Source: an uncultured Actinomycetes bacterium (lineage in GTDB: Bacteria > Actinomycetota > Actinomycetes > S36-B12). From it: a stretch of DNA of 32,759 nt. Under the pieces are notes generated by a model that was not told the DNA's origin, did no database searches, and worked only from the letters and a program-made list of their open reading frames with translations. Positions 206 through 27,690 of this stretch are shown piece by piece. Made by a program: the position numbers and the translations under genes. Position 1 is the first letter of the stretch; each line of letters opens with the position of its first letter. The stretch lies in NCBI GenBank assembly GCA_913061025.1, contig CAJXUJ010000004.1, positions 1 to 32,759 on the forward strand. Reading direction: 5' to 3'.

Positions 206-640
206 ATGGCTCAGGGAGAGGTGTCGGTACGCCGGGTATCGGTCAGTACCGAGGTGATCGATGCGGATGAGCTCCGCAGGCTCGTGGCCGACCCCGCGGC
301 CGGGGCGTGCGTGGTGTTTACCGGGGACGTCCGGGATAACGATCACCATCGCTCGGTGGTGTCCCTTACCTACGAGGCCCATCCGAACGCTCAAGCGGCC
401 CTGGAGGAGGTCGCGGCCGAGGTAGTCGCCGAGCACGACGTGATTGCGGTTGCTGTCGTCCACCGGCACGGCCCCATCCCGATAGGTGAATCGGCTCTGG
501 TGGCCGCAGCCAGTGCCCGCCATCGGCAGCAGGCGTTCGAGGCGTGCGTTGATCTTGTGGAGAAGACTAAGCAGCAAATACCGATCTGGAAACATCAGGT
601 CTTTGCGGATGGAACCGACGAATGGGTGAATTGCGCGTGA
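206..640 (+). CDS. moaE: Molybdopterin synthase catalytic subunit MoaE
   Basis: Translation has GACVVFTGDVRDND, LTYEAH, HRHGPIPIGE and KTKQQIPIWKHQ motifs of MoaE. Confidence 0.95.
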   Translation: MAQGEVSVRRVSVSTEVIDADELRRLVADPAAGACVVFTGDVRDNDHHRSVVSLTYEAHPNAQAALEEVAAEVVAEHDVIAVAVVHRHGPIPIGESALVAAASARHRQQAFEACVDLVEKTKQQIPIWKHQVFADGTDEWVNCA

Positions 641-1650
641 GTGAGTCTGAGAAGTCGCTAGTCGACACGTATGGCCGAGTGCATCGCGACATGCGGGTGT
701 CCCTCACCGATCGCTGCTCGCTGCGCTGCAACTACTGCATGCCGGCGGACTTTGCTGACTGGATTCCTGGCGATCACTTGCTGACGACCGACGAGATGAT
801 GCTCGTTCTCGACGTCGCGACCGAGATGGGTATCGATCAGGTCCGGCTTACCGGGGGAGAGCCACTCTTGCGCCCGGACGTTGTGGACGTCGTTCGTCGC
901 ATCTACGCATTGCCGCACGCCCCAAAGATTTCGCTCACGTCCAACGGACTTCGTCTTCCGAAACTTGCGAAGGAGCTTGCAGATGCCGGCCTTGAGCGGG
1001 TGAATATCAGTCTGGACACGCTCGACCCCCAGCGCTTTAAGGAAATGACGCACCGCGATCGATTCCATGACGTGATCGCGGGCATCGAGGCCGCCAAGGA
1101 GGCCGGCCTCCTTCCGGTCAAGGTGAACGCGGTGCTCCTGCGGGGAGTGAACGACGACGAAGCCGTGCCTCTGCTGAAGCATGCCCTCGCCAACGATTGG
1201 AAGCTCCGCTTCATCGAGCAAATGCCGCTTGATGCCGGTGGCCTTTGGGCACGGCCGAAGATGGTCACAGCCGACGAGATCATGGAGATGCTCTCGGCTG
1301 AGTTCGAACTCACCCCGGTGCCCGCTCGTGGTTCGGCCCCCGCTGAGGAGTTCTACGTCGACGGTGGACCTGCGACCGTTGGGATCATCGCCAGCGTGTC
1401 TCGACCGTTCTGTGCGGCGTGCGACCGACTCCGACTCACCGCCGATGGACAGTTCCGCAATTGCCTGTTCGCCCAGGACGAGACCGATGTCCGGGCCCTC
1501 CTGCGTGATTCGTCGTTGTCCGAGGATGAGATCCGCGCTGGAATCGCGTCGACCCTCGCCAAGGTGACGAAAGCGAAGTTGCCCGGCCACGGCATCAACG
1601 ATCCGACCTTCATCCAGCCCGCTCGACCAATGTCGGCCATCGGCGGCTAA
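637..1650 (+). CDS. moaA: GTP 3',8-cyclase MoaA (radical SAM)
   Basis: Radical SAM CxxxCxxC (CSLRCNYC), second cluster CAACDRLRLTADGQFRNCLF, C-terminal GG. GTG start at 637 overlaps the moaE stop; the ORF track start is 622. Confidence 0.96.
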   Translation: MSESEKSLVDTYGRVHRDMRVSLTDRCSLRCNYCMPADFADWIPGDHLLTTDEMMLVLDVATEMGIDQVRLTGGEPLLRPDVVDVVRRIYALPHAPKISLTSNGLRLPKLAKELADAGLERVNISLDTLDPQRFKEMTHRDRFHDVIAGIEAAKEAGLLPVKVNAVLLRGVNDDEAVPLLKHALANDWKLRFIEQMPLDAGGLWARPKMVTADEIMEMLSAEFELTPVPARGSAPAEEFYVDGGPATVGIIASVSRPFCAACDRLRLTADGQFRNCLFAQDETDVRALLRDSSLSEDEIRAGIASTLAKVTKAKLPGHGINDPTFIQPARPMSAIGG

Positions 1651-1665
1651 GTCCGGTTAGCCGCC
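1642..1665. terminator. Perfect inverted repeat formed by the moaA 3' end and first repeat unit (possible terminator, weak)
   Basis: GGCGGCTAA (1642-1650) - GTCCGG - TTAGCCGCC (1657-1665): 9-bp perfect stem including the moaA stop codon. No U-tract follows. Confidence 0.45.
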
Positions 1666-1734
1666 CGCGGACTTTCTGGCGGCCGACGGTTAGCCGCCCG
1701 CGGACTTTCTGGCGGCCGACGGTTAGCCGCCCGC
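1655..1734. repeat. 33-bp tandem direct repeat, 2 full copies plus a 14-bp partial copy, in the moaA/moaD convergent gap
   Basis: Unit GGTTAGCCGCCCGCGGACTTTCTGGCGGCCGAC at 1655-1687 and 1688-1720, then GGTTAGCCGCCCGC at 1721-1734 overlapping the moaD 3' end. Each unit has a GCCGCC/GGCGGC inverted repeat. Confidence 0.97.
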
Positions 1735-1968
1735 AAAGGGCGGCAGCACATCCACCTCAACACCCTCCTCCACAACCACCTCGGCGGGGTCTCCGTGAGT
1801 GGCGGTCCCGTTCACCAGGAATGAACAGCGGGGCAGCACCTCTGCGAGGGCGGGATGTTCTGCGGTTAGAGCATCGAGGACCGACCGCAGGGTTCCGGGC
1901 TGCCCTTGAAGTTCGCTGACTCCCGCCGCAGCGCGAGCGGCAGCAAAGAGGCGAATAGTGACGGCCAC
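1723..1968 (-). CDS. moaD: Molybdopterin synthase sulfur carrier subunit MoaD
   Basis: 81 aa beta-grasp protein ending VDVLPPFAGG, the MoaD/ThiS C-terminal GG. GTG start. Confidence 0.93.
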   Translation of the reverse strand: MAVTIRLFAAARAAAGVSELQGQPGTLRSVLDALTAEHPALAEVLPRCSFLVNGTATHGDPAEVVVEEGVEVDVLPPFAGG

Positions 1969-2110
1969 GGTTGCAGGCTAGCGCGTAGATCGGTGGCTCG
2001 AAGATCGTGAATACGCTTACGAGTAGGGACCAGGTGTCCTACCGTGGAAGGTGGTCGGATCTTCGCGAGAAGAGCGCCACGACCGATGATCGATTTGGCA
2101 AGGAGACACG

Positions 2111-2776
2111 ATGGAACTCGAGAACTCGTTCACCGTCCCCGCGGATGTTGACACCGCCTGGCAGACGCTGCTTGATGTCGAGGCGATCGCACCCTGCATG
2201 CCGGGGGCGACCCTCGACTCGGTCGACGGCGATGAGTTCAGCGGCAAGGTGAAGGTGAAGCTGGGCCCTGTCTCGATGGTGTACGGCGGGGAGGCCAAGT
2301 TTCTGTCCAAAGACGAGGCAACCCACACCGCGGTCATCGAGGGAACGGGCAAGGAGTCGCGCGGAACGGGCACTGCTCAGGCGAACGTGACGGTTGCGCT
2401 GACGGCCGAGGGGGCCGCGAGCACCCGGGTCGATGTCTCTACCGACCTCATGATTACCGGCAAGGCCGCTCAGTTCGGTAAGGGCGTCATGCAGGACGTC
2501 GCCGGTCGGCTCGTAGGTCAGTTCGCCTCCAACCTTGAAGGCGTGATCGCCTCGCGTTCGGCAACTGTCAGCGAGCCGGTGTCCGAGGCAACCCCTGGTG
2601 ATGGGGGAGAGACGACGAGTGCACCCGCACCCGTCGCGGCTCCAGCGCCGCCGCAGCAGGCGGAAGCGCTCGACCTTGGATCCGTCGCCATGGGTCCGGT
2701 CTTGAAGCGCGCGATTCCCGTCGTCGTGGGCGTGGTGGTCGTGGTTGGCGTCATTTGGTGGATTGCCAGCAGGTAG
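2111..2776 (+). CDS. coxG: CoxG/SRPBCC family protein with C-terminal membrane anchor
   Basis: MELENSFTVPADVDTAWQTLLDVEAIAPCMPGATLDSVDGDEFSGKVKVKLGPVSMVYGG is the CoxG signature; Pro/Ala linker; C-terminal hydrophobic VVVGVVVVVGVIWWIASR. AAGGAG RBS upstream. Confidence 0.88.
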   Translation: MELENSFTVPADVDTAWQTLLDVEAIAPCMPGATLDSVDGDEFSGKVKVKLGPVSMVYGGEAKFLSKDEATHTAVIEGTGKESRGTGTAQANVTVALTAEGAASTRVDVSTDLMITGKAAQFGKGVMQDVAGRLVGQFASNLEGVIASRSATVSEPVSEATPGDGGETTSAPAPVAAPAPPQQAEALDLGSVAMGPVLKRAIPVVVGVVVVVGVIWWIASR

Positions 2777-2780
2777 CCAC

Positions 2781-3665
2781 ATGTCCTTGCAGGAAATGAT
2801 CCCTTCTCCGGAAGCGCTCGTTGACCAGTTGTCGGACGAGGGCTACTTGGCCGATGAAGGTTTGGCGACCGCCCTGTTCTGCGCTGTTCGCCTGCCGCAG
2901 CCGCTGCTACTCGAAGGTGAAGCCGGCGTAGGAAAGACGCAGGCGGCTAAGTCACTCGCGGCCATGCTCGACACTCCATTGATTCGGTTGCAGTGCTTTG
3001 AGGGGATTGATGCCTCTGAGGCGCTATATGAGTGGAATTACCCGCGCCAACTCCTGAGCATCCGGGTAGCCGAGGCTGAGGGTGCATCGATTGAAGAAGC
3101 ATCGCTGTTCGATCGCGACTACTTGATTGAGCGACCGTTGCTCCAGGCAATCGAACACCCGGGCCCACTTCCGGCTGTCCTGTTGATCGACGAGGTGGAT
3201 CGGGCGGACGAGGAGTTCGAGGCATTCCTATTCGAGATGCTCGCCGAGAGCACGGTGACGGTTCCGGAGATCGGGACGATTCATGCGAAGCAACCCCCGA
3301 TCGTGATCTTGACGTCGAACCGGACGCGCGATCTGCACGATGCCCTCAAGCGTCGGTGCCTCTACCACTGGATCGACTACCCCGACCTCACCCACGCCAC
3401 GGCCATCGTCCGCGCTCGGGTGCCAGAAGCCTCCGAACAACTCGCAACCGAGGTCGCCGAAGCCGTCGAGCGGATTCGTGGCCTGGACGTTCAGAAGCCA
3501 CCCGGGATCGCAGAAGCGATCGATTGGGTTCACGCTGCCGCTTTGCTCGGTCTTCGAGGCCTCGACGAAGTCGGAGTTGAACGGACGCTCAGCTCGGTGT
3601 TGAAATACCGCGAGGATCAAGATCTCGCTCGCGCCGAAGGTCTGGCCTGGGTTGCCGGACAGTAA
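2781..3665 (+). CDS. coxD: MoxR-family AAA+ ATPase (CoxD-like)
   Basis: Walker A EGEAGVGKT, Walker B LLIDEVDRADEEFEAFLFEMLAE, ILTSNRTRDLHDALKRRCLYHWIDYP. First good ATG at 2781. Confidence 0.88.
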   Translation: MSLQEMIPSPEALVDQLSDEGYLADEGLATALFCAVRLPQPLLLEGEAGVGKTQAAKSLAAMLDTPLIRLQCFEGIDASEALYEWNYPRQLLSIRVAEAEGASIEEASLFDRDYLIERPLLQAIEHPGPLPAVLLIDEVDRADEEFEAFLFEMLAESTVTVPEIGTIHAKQPPIVILTSNRTRDLHDALKRRCLYHWIDYPDLTHATAIVRARVPEASEQLATEVAEAVERIRGLDVQKPPGIAEAIDWVHAAALLGLRGLDEVGVERTLSSVLKYREDQDLARAEGLAWVAGQ

Positions 3666-4896
3666 CGAGCCGGACCTCTCGGCGATCTGTGCCGCCTTCG
3701 GTGACCTCCTGCATCGGGCGGGCGTGGCCGTCACCCCGGAACGCAGCGCCCGGTTCGCATCGTCGGTTCTGCTTGCCCAGCCTGCGGATATCCCGCATCT
3801 CTACTGGCTCGGTCGAGTGACACTGACAACGTCACGTGAGCAATTCGCTACCTACGATCAAGTCTTTCGACAGGTTTTCCGTGGTCTGGTCGACCTTGCC
3901 GAGTTGCGATCGGATGACGTTCGAGACGACGAGGCTCCGCAGCCGGAGGCACCCGGTGGGGATACCGCGCCGTCGGTTCGCGATCGCAGTGATGACTCGA
4001 ATGCGGGTAGGCACGGAACCAGCGCGACGCCGGGTGCGGTCAATCCCGATGCTGAAGCATCTGAGGCGAGCGCCCTCGCCGCGGTCAGCGAGGTTGAACG
4101 CTTGAACGATCGAGAGTTCTCGACGCTGACTCCCGAGGAACTAGCCCTGCTGCAGCGACTCGTCGAGCAACTTCCACTGGTGCCGCCTCTGCGCCGGGGG
4201 CGGCGTTCCAAGCGACACCGCTCGGTCGGCCCACTCGACGTCCGTGCGACCTTGCGCCGATCACATCGCACGGCGGGGGATCCGGTGACGTTGGTGCACC
4301 GCCGCCGGTCGACCAAGCCCCGCCGGATCATCCTGATCGCAGATGTCTCGGGCTCTATGGAGCCCTACGCGCGGGTTTACCTACACCTGCTGCGAGGTGC
4401 CGTTCGAGCTATCAAGGCCGAAGCGTTCGTCTTCGCAACCCATCTCACCCGGCTTACCTCACAGCTCTCGACCATGAACACCGAGGCCGCGTACGCGAAG
4501 GCCGCAGAAGCTGCCAACGATTGGTCCGGTGGAACCCGCATTGGCCGCTCGATACAGACCTTCATCGACGACTTCGGTCGGCGGGGCATGGCCCGCGGCG
4601 CTGTGGTGGTCATCGTGAGCGACGGGTGGGAGAGTGACCGACCGGAGTTCCTCGGCGCCGCGATGATGCAGCTGAGCCGCCTTACCCACCACATCATCTG
4701 GGTCAATCCGCGCAAAGCGGCCGATTCCTTCGAACCGTTGACCGGTGGGATGGCTGCAGCGCTTCCGTACATCGACACGTTCCTGTCCGGTCATAGCCTG
4801 CGGGCACTGCAGGACGTGATGGCGGCGATCTCTGCTGCAGGCGATCGGGTTGAACGCTCGACCCTCGAGCGGGCACGCGTGATCGGTGCAGCCTGA
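3652..4896 (+). CDS. coxE: VWA domain-containing CoxE-like protein
   Basis: Conserved RRSTKPRRIILIADVSGSM (MIDAS DxSxS), GGTRIG, VVIVSDGWE, HHIIWVNPRKA. TTG start overlaps the upstream ATPase gene; exact start uncertain. Confidence 0.87.
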   Translation: MPDSNEPDLSAICAAFGDLLHRAGVAVTPERSARFASSVLLAQPADIPHLYWLGRVTLTTSREQFATYDQVFRQVFRGLVDLAELRSDDVRDDEAPQPEAPGGDTAPSVRDRSDDSNAGRHGTSATPGAVNPDAEASEASALAAVSEVERLNDREFSTLTPEELALLQRLVEQLPLVPPLRRGRRSKRHRSVGPLDVRATLRRSHRTAGDPVTLVHRRRSTKPRRIILIADVSGSMEPYARVYLHLLRGAVRAIKAEAFVFATHLTRLTSQLSTMNTEAAYAKAAEAANDWSGGTRIGRSIQTFIDDFGRRGMARGAVVVIVSDGWESDRPEFLGAAMMQLSRLTHHIIWVNPRKAADSFEPLTGGMAAALPYIDTFLSGHSLRALQDVMAAISAAGDRVERSTLERARVIGAA

Positions 4897-4910
4897 ATAG
4901 GCTGACTCCC

Positions 4911-6140
4911 GTGTTGGTTTCCGTCGACGACTACCGCGAGGGGATTCTGTCTGGCCTGACTGCGCTGGATCCCATCACTCTCCCGCTGCCCGACAGCCAC
5001 GGCTGCGTACTGGCCGAGGATGTTGTGGCCGAGTGGCCGCTTCCGTCCTTTGATAACTCGTCGATGGACGGCTATGCCGTTCTTGCGACCGACGTAGCCG
5101 GCGCCACCGAGGAGTCTCCCGTCACCTTGACGGTTATCGACGACGTTCCCGCTGGTGCGCGGGCAGACGTACCGGTGACTTCGGGGAATGCGGTGCGGAT
5201 CATGACCGGGGCCCCGACGCCGGCCGGAACCGAATGCATCGTTCCGGTCGAACTCACCGACGGTGGCACCAGCACCGTGGAGATTCGTGGAGCCGTGGAA
5301 GCAGGCACCTACATCCGTCACGCGGGTGAGGACGTCATCGTCGGGGACACCGTGGTTCGCGCAGGGACGCTGCTTTCGGCTCGCCACCTTGCGGTGATCG
5401 CGGCAGTCGGCAAGGGGCACCTGCTCGTCTACCCGCGGCCCCGGGTTGCGGTGCTATCAACCGGCAGTGAACTGGTCGAGCCTGGAACCCCGCTGAGTAA
5501 AGGCATGATCAGCGATTCGAACAGCTTCCTGCTCGTCGCGGCAGCGAACGAGGCGGGAGCGCAGGCCTACCGCGTTCCACCGGTGCGCGACGACGCCGAG
5601 GCGTTCTCCGCGGCTATCACCGATCAGCTGCACCGGGCCGATCTCATCTTGACCAGCGGCGGCGTGAGCATGGGCGCCTACGACACCGTCAAGGAAGTCT
5701 TCACCGAGTACGGAACCGTCGAGTTCACCAAGGTGGCCATGCATCCGGGGATGCCGCAGGGTCACGGATTCGTCGGGGAGTCCGAGGACGAGCGCATTCC
5801 GGTCATCACCCTCCCAGGGAACCCGGTGAGTTCCTACATCTCATTCCAGAACTTCGTGCGCCCGGCGATCAACAAAATGCGTGGACTACCCGACGGAGAT
5901 CGTCCACGGATTCCTGCGCAGATCACTAAGGCGATGGACTCGCCCCAAAACAAGCGGCAATTCGCGCGGGGGCGGTTTCTCGCCGACGGTCGTGTCGAGC
6001 CGGTGGGTGGTGGTCAGGGTTCGCACGTGATCGGCGGCCTCGCGCAATCCGACTGCTTGATTGTCATCCCCGAGGGCGTGGGACATGTCAATGCCGGCGA
6101 CACGGTGGATGTCGTGGACCTGCGAGGTGACGTTCGATGA
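4911..6140 (+). CDS. moeA: Molybdopterin molybdenumtransferase MoeA
   Basis: SFDNSSMDGYA, GAPTPAGTECIVPVE, STGSELVEPG, LTSGGVSMGAYD, LPGNPVSSYISF motifs. GTG start. Confidence 0.96.
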   Translation: MLVSVDDYREGILSGLTALDPITLPLPDSHGCVLAEDVVAEWPLPSFDNSSMDGYAVLATDVAGATEESPVTLTVIDDVPAGARADVPVTSGNAVRIMTGAPTPAGTECIVPVELTDGGTSTVEIRGAVEAGTYIRHAGEDVIVGDTVVRAGTLLSARHLAVIAAVGKGHLLVYPRPRVAVLSTGSELVEPGTPLSKGMISDSNSFLLVAAANEAGAQAYRVPPVRDDAEAFSAAITDQLHRADLILTSGGVSMGAYDTVKEVFTEYGTVEFTKVAMHPGMPQGHGFVGESEDERIPVITLPGNPVSSYISFQNFVRPAINKMRGLPDGDRPRIPAQITKAMDSPQNKRQFARGRFLADGRVEPVGGGQGSHVIGGLAQSDCLIVIPEGVGHVNAGDTVDVVDLRGDVR

Positions 6141-6616
6141 GTGGTTTCACCCACCTCGATGATGCGGGCGACGCCCGGATGGTTGACGTCGCGGCGAAGG
6201 ATGTCACCGATCGACGCGCAACAGCGCGGGCCTTCGTGCGGGTTGGGCCAGAGGTGATCGACATGCTCCGCGGCTCGGGAGTCCCGAAGGGCGATGCCCT
6301 AGCGGTGGCTCGGATTGCTGCGATCGCGGGAACCAAGCGGACACCGGATCTCATTCCGCTGTGTCACCCGATCGCGGTGCATGGAGTGGATGTGGACGTC
6401 GTTGTCGAAGACGAAGGCGTCCAACTGACCGTGACGGTGCGGACGGCTGATCGCACCGGAGTCGAGATGGAAGCTCTCACCGGGGCCAGCGTTGGAGCGC
6501 TGGCGATGATCGACATGGTCAAGGGCGTGGATCGATCCGCGATGATCGACGAAGTAGTGCTTCTTGAAAAGTCCGGAGGCAGGTCCGGCCACTATGTCCG
6601 TGGTGAGTCCTCGTGA
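6137..6616 (+). CDS. moaC: Cyclic pyranopterin monophosphate synthase MoaC
   Basis: MVDVAAKDVTDRRATARA, GTKRTPDLIPLCHPI, GVEMEALTGASVGALAMIDMVK motifs. ATGA overlap with moeA. Confidence 0.96.
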   Translation: MSGFTHLDDAGDARMVDVAAKDVTDRRATARAFVRVGPEVIDMLRGSGVPKGDALAVARIAAIAGTKRTPDLIPLCHPIAVHGVDVDVVVEDEGVQLTVTVRTADRTGVEMEALTGASVGALAMIDMVKGVDRSAMIDEVVLLEKSGGRSGHYVRGESS

Positions 6617-7101
6617 GCTACCGGGCGCTCGTCATCACGTCTTCCAATCGGGCGGCAAGGGGAGAGTGGGAAGACACCTCCGGCCCGATCCTCGTTGCCG
6701 GGTTAACACAACTCGGGCTCGACGTGGTGGGACCGAGGGTTGTGGCTGATGGTGAACCTCTTGCCGAGGCCCTGGAACAGGGCGTCGTGGAGGGCTTCGA
6801 TCTGATCCTGACTACTGGCGGAACCGGACACACACCCCAGGACCTCACGCCGGAGATGACCCGGCGGGTGATCGAGCGTGAGTCGCCAGGCCTCGCCGAG
6901 GCGGTGCGCAACTACGGGGTCGCGGGTGGGGTACCGACCGCAGTACTCTCGCGGGGCATTGCCGGCATCGTCGGGCAGACCCTGATCGTCAATCTGCCGG
7001 GATCTCCGGGCGGCTGCCGCGATGGCATTGCCGCTCTCGGACCGGTTATTCCGCACGCACTCGATCAAATTCACGGTGGGGACCACCAGCGGACGTCCTA
7101 G
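6613..7101 (+). CDS. mogA: MogA/MoaB family molybdenum cofactor biosynthesis protein
   Basis: LILTTGGTGHTPQDLTPEMTRRVIERESPGLAEAVR and VNLPGSPGGCRDGI. Overlaps the moaC stop. Confidence 0.92.
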   Translation: MSYRALVITSSNRAARGEWEDTSGPILVAGLTQLGLDVVGPRVVADGEPLAEALEQGVVEGFDLILTTGGTGHTPQDLTPEMTRRVIERESPGLAEAVRNYGVAGGVPTAVLSRGIAGIVGQTLIVNLPGSPGGCRDGIAALGPVIPHALDQIHGGDHQRTS

Positions 7102-25274: not shown

Positions 25275-25571
25275 ATGAGCGAGTCATCGCAGACACCCCT
25301 GGAAGATCTGCCCTTCGACGAGTTGCGGCACCGCGCCTTCCACATCGCTGAGCACCGCGTGGACATTGGCTTCTTCACCGACCTTTTCGGGCATATGCCC
25401 GGCATGGTCGCGATCGAGGGCGAGCAGGGTGATCTCGGCGCTATCGGTGGAACCTTCATCGAGACCGTGCGCGCTGTGAAAGAGATGTTCGGATCCGGAG
25501 ACATCGATCCCAGCACCGAGGCCCTCCTGCGCGCACGTTTCGCGACCTACATTCGTGAACACGAGGGCTAG
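25275..25571 (+). CDS. Conserved hypothetical small protein (98 aa)
   Basis: Intact ORF, soluble acidic translation; no family recognised. Confidence 0.65.
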   Translation: MSESSQTPLEDLPFDELRHRAFHIAEHRVDIGFFTDLFGHMPGMVAIEGEQGDLGAIGGTFIETVRAVKEMFGSGDIDPSTEALLRARFATYIREHEG

Positions 25572-25577
25572 CGGCAG

Positions 25578-26726
25578 CTAGCGATCCGCGTCCCCGGTTA
25601 CGAAGAAGAAGGAACCCACGGCCGAGGAGAGTTCCGTCAGCGGGGTGCCCGGTAGCGCGACCTGCATCGCCTGCAGGTGGGCGAAGCTCGGTGTCCTTGC
25701 CTTGAGTCGTACCGGTAGGGAATCACCGTCGCTGACCAGAAGCCAGCCGGCGATACCGAGTGGATTTTGGGTGCGCACGTGAACCGTCCCCTCAGGTGCT
25801 CGCAGGGTCTTGGGCAACGGAACCGAATAGGGCTCGTCTTCGAGGTCCCTCAAGCGCGCGGCGCACTCGGCAATGATCGAAGAACTCACGGTGATCGAAT
25901 CGATGAGCGATAGATAGCGGGCGCGTGCGTCCCCTTCGGTCCGAACCGGTGCACTCCAATCGACATCGATGTGCTCGTAGGCCAAATAGGGGTCGTCGCG
26001 TCGCAGATCCCAATCGACGCCACTGGCGTGACCTACTGCACCGGAGCACGCATACGTACGGGCGTCGTCGTAACGAAGTAGCGCGAGATCGTTGAGTTCG
26101 TCGATCGCGGAGATGTGGTCTCGCCAGGTCGGTGCCAGGCTGCTCGCGTAAGCGGAGAGTTCAACGATGTCGGTGAGGCTGGCGTTTGGAAGCGGATGCT
26201 CCAGGCCACCGATTCGGTTGATCATTGGGTGCACGCGACCGCCGGTTGCCCGTTCCTGCCACTGCGCCCACGATTCGCGGAGGGACAGAGCATCGTCTAG
26301 CCCTCGGGCGCCGAGGAGGAGTGCGGCGGCACCTATCCGGCCGGCTTCGGCGAGCAGCATGCGAGACCACGTCGCGCGTTCGGGGGGCGTGATACCCGTG
26401 GCTTTCTCGACGGTCAAGGCCACACCGAGTTCGGATGAGACGGCCGAGAGCCAGTCGTGCCGGTTGGCCAGCATCATGATCTGTCGGTAGTCGCGAGCCT
26501 CGAAGAGTTTTTCGGCACTGCGATGCATCAGTCCTGGGCGCACGTGACACGACGTAACAACGTCGCGTCCAGACTGCACCTCGGTCTCGAGATCGATCTC
26601 AAGACCTCCGTGGTTACCGGGATGGAACTCTCCGAGATCGAGGGTTAGGCGGTTGTCTTCGGGGGTTCCCAGATATCGCGCCATCCCGATGGCAGCGGTG
26701 ATACGGCTCGTGCTCGCGGACTCCAC
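25578..26726 (-). CDS. Orphan NuoD-like (complex I 49-kDa subunit family) protein
   Basis: LTLDLGEFHPGNHGGLEIDLE, PGLMHRSAEKLFEARDYRQ, ASGVDWDLRRDDPYLAYEHIDVD, LVSDGDSLPVRLKARTPSFAHLQAM, C-terminal VTGDADR match NuoD block by block. GTG start. Confidence 0.9.
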   Translation of the reverse strand: MESASTSRITAAIGMARYLGTPEDNRLTLDLGEFHPGNHGGLEIDLETEVQSGRDVVTSCHVRPGLMHRSAEKLFEARDYRQIMMLANRHDWLSAVSSELGVALTVEKATGITPPERATWSRMLLAEAGRIGAAALLLGARGLDDALSLRESWAQWQERATGGRVHPMINRIGGLEHPLPNASLTDIVELSAYASSLAPTWRDHISAIDELNDLALLRYDDARTYACSGAVGHASGVDWDLRRDDPYLAYEHIDVDWSAPVRTEGDARARYLSLIDSITVSSSIIAECAARLRDLEDEPYSVPLPKTLRAPEGTVHVRTQNPLGIAGWLLVSDGDSLPVRLKARTPSFAHLQAMQVALPGTPLTELSSAVGSFFFVTGDADR

Positions 26727-26730
26727 CTTC

Positions 26731-27690
26731 CTATGCTCGCATCCCGGTGGTTCCGCGCTGCTCGATCAGCCATGCGAAGGAGCCCAGCGCGGGCGGCCAG
26801 GAATCCAAAGATGTATCGCCGAGTAGTTCCGATTGATGGTGGATCGCCGATCGTGGGCCTGCGCACGCATCCAGGGCGACGTGCGCGGTGATGTTCATCG
26901 AGCCATCGGGAACGGCGGATCGGGGCGCGCCGTTCGCGAAACCCTTCATAGTCCCGCCATCCCACAGCCCAGCCGCTCGATCCGCGCGGTGGTGCGCGTA
27001 ATCGATCGCGACGCAGTAGCCGTTGTCGATCGTCTGCGTAAGGCCTCTCCACACCCGGTCACGCGTGGTACCAATCTCCCGGCGCGCGAAAGCGCGCGTC
27101 GGGGGCCACCACCGGTCCAGCCAGTCCGCTGCTTCAACCCGTGTCGTATTTCCGAGATAGCGATCGGCTGCCGGATCCCCGAGAAGAGGGCCGAGGTCTT
27201 CTGCTCCGCTCGTGGGGTCGACGAGTACTACGCGTGGCCGCACCTGGTCATCGAGTTCGACGATGGGGCACGCGATGTCATCGAGGAACTCATGCGCGAC
27301 CAGGATTCCGTTGACCGACTCTGCCGATCCGAGGATCTCCGAATCGCCCTCGGCTAGTTCGCGTTGCTGCCACACAATTCTTGTTGGCAGATCCGCAGGG
27401 CGGGGTCGTTGATCGATGCCAATCAACGTCGTCGACTTGGGGACCCGAGTTGACAGTTGGCGTAGCAGTTCACCGGATCCGGAGCCGACGTCGATGATTG
27501 CTAAATCCTTGGTCGATTCCTCGAGGTTGGTGAGGAGATTCGCAAGGGTCTGTGCAGTGCGCGTGCTGGCGTGAACCGGCGTCTGGAAGTGCTGTTCGGC
27601 ATGGTGAGACGTGTAGAAGTCACGATTCGCCTGGTTCCAACTATCCAGCCACGGATGTTCCGCGCAAACTCGGCTATCGGCCCGTGACAT
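26731..27690 (-). CDS. SAM-dependent methyltransferase, probably MidA/NDUFAF7 (COG1565)-like
   Basis: SAM motif IIDVGSGSGELL; GILVAHEFLDDIACPIVELDD (MidA NEFxDAxP-like); GYCVAIDYAHH...GTMKGFANG...SMNITAHVALDA (MidA IDYG / DITAHVDF-like). Stops 4 bp before the NuoD-like start. Confidence 0.75.
   Translation of the reverse strand: MSRADSRVCAEHPWLDSWNQANRDFYTSHHAEQHFQTPVHASTRTAQTLANLLTNLEESTKDLAIIDVGSGSGELLRQLSTRVPKSTTLIGIDQRPRPADLPTRIVWQQRELAEGDSEILGSAESVNGILVAHEFLDDIACPIVELDDQVRPRVVLVDPTSGAEDLGPLLGDPAADRYLGNTTRVEAADWLDRWWPPTRAFARREIGTTRDRVWRGLTQTIDNGYCVAIDYAHHRADRAAGLWDGGTMKGFANGAPRSAVPDGSMNITAHVALDACAGPRSAIHHQSELLGDTSLDSWPPALGSFAWLIEQRGTTGMRA

Follow-up and report, generated by a model that had tools for sequence, protein, structure and literature searches.

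Why does a freshwater-type actinobacterium keep a NuoD/49-kDa-type gene of complex I away from its nuo operon, directly beside the gene of a MidA/NDUFAF7-family methyltransferase? The window (the whole stretch of 32,759 nucleotides analyzed here) holds no nuo gene besides nuoD2 according to a six-frame search, in agreement with the preliminary description, and a search for the canonical nuo operon of the host genome located it, with its own nuoD, on contig C3, apart from the window. We consider it likely that NuoD2 is a subunit of a second complex I (nuo2), which in the host clade has been reduced to a hydrophilic Q-module remnant of NuoB2, NuoC2, NuoD2 and NuoI2, with the neighboring enzyme most likely dimethylating Arg69 and the module being ferredoxin-linked and probably soluble.

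The nuoD2-methyltransferase gene pair

The two closely spaced minus-strand genes were confirmed as open reading frames (Table 1), with 4 bp separating the methyltransferase stop (26731) from the NuoD2 GTG start (26726) and nuoD2 lying downstream. The pair stands outside any nuoA-N cluster, flanked by folE-P-B-K/DUF3180 on one side and DUF2520-panC-nadB-nadC on the other, and its gene order is kept in relatives. Purifying selection acts on both genes, with dN/dS values of 0.05-0.16 for NuoD2 and 0.07-0.20 for the methyltransferase. Between DUF3180 and nuoD2, a 98-aa ORF on the plus strand (25275-25571), convergent with nuoD2, has no Pfam match and occupies the same position in nearly all relatives. 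Elsewhere in the window, positions 206-7101 carry the molybdenum cofactor genes moaE, moaA-like, moeA, moaC and mog-like, with an AAA ATPase/CoxE-like VWA pair (2745-4896) in their midst.

Table 1 Gene pair and candidate methylation site in the window
Feature	Position	Strand	Evidence
NuoD2, NuoD/49-kDa-type, 382 aa, GTG start	25578..26726	minus	PF00346, Foldseek, AF2
MidA/NDUFAF7-family SAM-dependent methyltransferase, 319 aa, divergent subfamily	26731..27690	minus	PF02636 (COG1565)
Arg69 codon CGC of NuoD2 (NDUFS2 Arg85 equivalent)	26520..26522	minus	sequence + alignment

The upstream product matched PF02636 (Methyltransf_28) with E = 1.3e-10 and 41.7 bits against a gathering cut-off of 23.3. 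A family profile of 26 orthologs, from which the PDB matches came rather than from a single-sequence search, matched the COG1565/MidA structures 4f3n (1e-14) and 1zkd (9e-10) and NDUFAF7 5ztz (5.5e-6). Its AlphaFold model (pLDDT 92.7) gave 4g67 as the best fold match (E 3e-14, TM 0.71), and the six best fold matches, chains of 4g67, 1zkd, 4f3n, 5zu0 and 5ztz, all belong to COG1565/MidA, which bears out the proposed membership. Identity to solved structures is 11-18%, marking a divergent MidA, and the conserved positions include the SAM motif DVGSGSG (D67, G69, G71, G73), E134/D137, D230-Y231 and T268-A-H-V. The enzyme thus resembles NDUFAF7/MidA (5ztz/5zu0, 4g67, 1zkd) in its PF02636/COG1565 family and fold and in its SAM, Glu/Asp and TAHV-type motifs, but the putative enzyme here falls in a divergent actinobacterial subfamily and its gene adjoins nuoD2 or ends a nuo2 operon. 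No second PF02636 protein was found in the host genome.

NuoD2 matched PF00346 (E = 1.2e-40) and scored 189.6 bits against the NuoD equivalog TIGR01962, whose cut-off is 459. Its AF2 model (pLDDT 91.8) retrieved complex I 49-kDa chains in Foldseek with TM of about 0.8. The segment GLMHR69SAEK aligns with bovine GLLHRGTEK, as had been claimed, and NuoD2 therefore bears the HRxxEK motif like NDUFS2 of the NDUFAF7 system. At the NDUFS2-Arg85 position, Arg is present in all 116 distinct NuoD2 sequences and Thr in 14/14 canonical actinobacterial NuoD; because the canonical protein has Thr, NuoD2 is the host's NuoD with the methylatable residue there. This sets the host apart from the NDUFAF7/MidA system, for its canonical NuoD is without the Arg. 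The quinone-ligating Tyr site (bovine Tyr108) is Leu86 in all 116 NuoD2 and Phe/Tyr in the 14 canonical sequences, and the residue after it is Trp in the former and Tyr in the latter. A shortened, divergent and possibly decaying NuoD2 with HANHRGDEK and AHINRHGW was seen at the usual locus of one relative (G043, L101 4680-5582).

Co-occurrence of NuoD2 with the methyltransferase

Across Actinomycetota there is a second complex I without an N-module (nuo2), to which NuoD2 contributes the D subunit and of which the methyltransferase is a long-standing partner. A larger nuo2 with H2, K2, L2 and M2 occurs in Streptomyces, Actinoplanes, Aeromicrobium and others, with NuoD2 and the methyltransferase encoded elsewhere; in Kibdelosporangium (L231) these two lie 3-4 kb from nuo2, and in another actinobacterial class an intact operon B-C-D-H-I-K-L-M-N is followed by a PF02636 gene (L259, L236-L239, L270, L271). 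NuoD2 of the host descends from an 11-subunit-type nuo2 complex. Of 80 named loci, 67 have the methyltransferase inside the fetched NuoD2 flanks, in line with the long conservation, Streptomyces included, suggested in the preliminary description.

The expected co-occurrence within Actinomycetota was also recovered: NuoD2, NuoB2 and the methyltransferase share an identical distribution over 30 of the 73 genomes sampled from the class Actinomycetes, and the only methyltransferase hit in the other 43 is a doubtful fragment (G458) unconfirmed by PF02636. As one family supplies most of the 30 genomes, the counts are clustered by phylogeny and a Fisher value overstates the evidence; concordant loss in family f12 and several relatives gives independent support. 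Among the relatives of the host, the methyltransferase accompanies NuoD2 in 31/49 genomes and occurs in 0/10 genomes without it. The view of the pair as dedicated needs qualifying: the enzyme, which in these relatives is confined to genomes with NuoD2, is lacking in 18 of the 49 genomes of the host's clade (8 changes on the tree, pointing to repeated loss) and the Arg stays invariant there. A family-profile search revealed no overlooked methyltransferase at the loci of the enzyme-less relatives.

Arg85 of NDUFS2 is dimethylated by NDUFAF7, which is established chemistry (PMC3829151, PMC8042128), and MidA function in prokaryotes has so far been inferred only in silico (PMC12455994). We rejected Arg conservation as proof of methylation in NuoD2 on the basis of the enzyme-less control lineages. 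Besides the relatives mentioned above, Arg is found in nine sampled nuo2 NuoD from families that yielded no PF02636 protein, and since it is invariant in enzyme-less lineages, its retention is not evidence of methylation. The corresponding Arg in E. coli is not dimethylated (PMC8042128), and the Arg of NuoD2 is likewise kept for its own sake.

This conservation without the enzyme would also suit a methyltransferase acting on another nuo2 subunit, another protein or nucleic acid, its link with NuoD2 reflecting shared regulation or nuo2 membership only; the divergence of the subfamily and a report that Wolbachia MidA methylates DNA in E. coli (PMC12455994) point the same way. We regard such a target as rather unlikely, as the enzyme is tightly coupled to NuoD2 and nuo2, both physically and phyletically, and the characterized protein substrate of the family is NDUFS2/NuoD at the same Arg (PMC3829151). 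Methylation of Arg69 by the neighboring enzyme is the probable activity. The repeated loss of the enzyme in the clade without a membrane arm, together with its presence in 30/30 sampled genomes of the other Actinomycetes families, fits a modification that mattered most in the membrane-bound ancestor, though the ordering may also be the reverse.

Essentially every genome with the pair also has canonical nuo, as would be expected if NuoD2 and the methyltransferase helped to assemble canonical complex I or served as decoys for it. This is very improbable given that five relatives (G038, G042, G046, G048, G054) retain nuo1 without NuoD2, NuoB2 and the methyltransferase, and that the target position is Thr in canonical NuoD. 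Canonical complex I as the client of the methyltransferase was discarded on the same two observations, which favor the role outside canonical complex I that had been proposed for NuoD2.

Partner subunits and loss of the membrane arm

NuoD2 is not the orphan it had been taken for. A PF01058 search of the relatives detected a second, short NuoB in 44 of 49 genomes with NuoD2 and in 1 of 8 without it. In sister genomes nuoB2 heads a three-gene cluster, nuoB2-nuoC2-nuoI2 (PF01058, PF00329 and two 4Fe-4S motifs), which in the relatives follows nuoN and a polyprenyl synthetase gene. The Fe-S ligands are intact, including the N2 cysteines of NuoB2 and both CxxCxxCxxxCP motifs of NuoI2. Homology and co-occurrence make it highly probable that NuoB2, NuoC2, NuoD2 and NuoI2 form a physical complex. 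Divergently adjoining nuoB2C2I2 in 9/12 loci (L106, L107, L109, L111, L112, L114-L117) is korA-korB, encoding a 2-oxoacid:ferredoxin oxidoreductase.

The cluster was absent from the host's own assembly, which is 79% complete. Contig C3 stops just past the polyprenyl synthetase, and the contig with korA, some 2 kb long, is interrupted within that gene at the end facing the expected nuoB2, a break that explains the missing genes. A further PF01058 match in the host genome (G000, C135:761-1255, L119) lies in a 391-aa frame and is neither NuoB nor NuoB2.

In the host clade, nuo2 is down to B2-C2-I2, beside korAB, plus D2. The host genome and nearly all of 58 relatives have a single NuoH and no second one, the exceptions being a hydrogenase-like locus in G035, G043 and G052, a split gene in G003 and a complete additional copy on a separate contig in G008. 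The beta1-beta2 loop of NuoD2 has an identity of 0.51 in this arm-less group, compared with 0.94 for the arm-bearing sequences and 0.92 for canonical NuoD, and the 130-150 loop, 29 residues long in 49/50 arm-bearing NuoD2 and 14/14 canonical NuoD, ranges from 18 to 40 in arm-less ones; two Frankiales MAGs (L173, L177) were labelled arm-bearing here without a check for the nuo2 cluster. The host's NuoD2 is of the arm-less variant, with a short 130-150 loop and an altered beta1-beta2 loop. The N2-facing region 68-92 is still conserved in arm-less NuoD2, and because dN/dS is low in both genes of the pair, the changes in this clade do not represent decay. Arm-less NuoB2 lacks the YSLW helix and the R-D-x-x-R-x-G...PRQADL segment, and arm-less NuoI2 lacks the N-terminal amphipathic segment, all of which are retained in arm-bearing nuo2. 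From the general knowledge of complex I structures, we take the lost segments of D2, B2 and I2 to be the NuoH/quinone interface. In the tree, arm-less NuoD2 forms one clade nested within arm-bearing NuoD2 (support 98), consistent with a single loss of the arm.

Could the four subunits instead dock as an alternative Q-module onto the canonical Nuo1 membrane arm, giving a ferredoxin:menaquinone oxidoreductase? Just one membrane arm is encoded, the BCI genes follow nuoN within one region and adjoin korAB, and for Streptomyces the nuo and nuo2 products have been proposed to form a hybrid (PMC9239103). We nevertheless find this docking unlikely, because what D2, B2 and I2 have lost or scrambled in this clade is exactly their NuoH/quinone-facing segments, and lineages with their own arm retain them. 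The soluble state of the module, to which the missing arm of its own and the degraded quinone- and NuoH-facing surfaces point, is somewhat favored on balance.

Proposed mechanism and relation to known systems

In the proposed mechanism, the MidA-family enzyme would dimethylate Arg69 before or during docking of NuoD2 onto NuoB2, and the modification would stabilize cluster N2 as NDUFAF7 does through Arg85 of NDUFS2. Ferredoxin, reduced by the adjacent KorAB, would hand electrons to NuoI2, from which they would arrive at N2 at the B2/D2 interface of a soluble redox complex. The input of ferredoxin from KorAB is slightly more probable than its absence. The full combination, in which the Q-module has left the membrane, lost its quinone site and become a soluble ferredoxin-linked enzyme coupled to 2-oxoacid:ferredoxin oxidoreductase while keeping the arginine methyltransferase of its ancestor, is put forward tentatively, at a little under even chances.

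Measured against 11-subunit complex I-like enzymes, the module has B, C, D and I paralogs with Fe-S ligands in sister genomes and nuo2 descent, but no membrane subunits of its own. The set B, C, D and I without E, F and G, with ferredoxin as the proposed donor, is shared with Desulfitobacterium (PMC11238625) and cyanobacterial NDH-1; unlike these, the host clade has no A, H and J-N counterparts for the module, whose quinone/NuoH interface is gone. What donates electrons to N-module-less complex I is a question left open in the literature (PMC11238625), for which the conserved korAB beside nuoB2 offers a concrete candidate. Operon linkage between a MidA enzyme and a NuoD with the Arg, in cells that have Thr in their canonical NuoD, provides a clean natural system for testing the role of the methylation. 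If three subunits did lose their membrane interface together, this would be an unusual case of part of complex I quitting the membrane. In the literature searched, which left most subscription papers outside, we found no description of a NuoD2-methyltransferase pair, a nuo2-linked MidA or an arm-less BCDI module.

Streptomyces nuo2 and nuoD2 have been described, with their function called unclear and nuo2 given as being without NuoC and NuoD (PMC3765725, PMC8388888, PMC9239103). Like Streptomyces nuo2, the system here has an orthologous NuoD2 apart from the other nuo2 genes and no EFG module; unlike the published version, it includes a NuoC2, encoded inside nuo2 clusters, as well as the methyltransferase, and in the host clade nuo2 has lost its membrane subunits. 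In three Streptomyces loci (L227, L228, L234), korA-korB also lies near nuo2. At a Microbispora locus (L233), nuoB2 and nuoC2 adjoin korAB, and the genes that part them from nuoI2 are unrelated and include no NuoH, perhaps another way to lose the arm.
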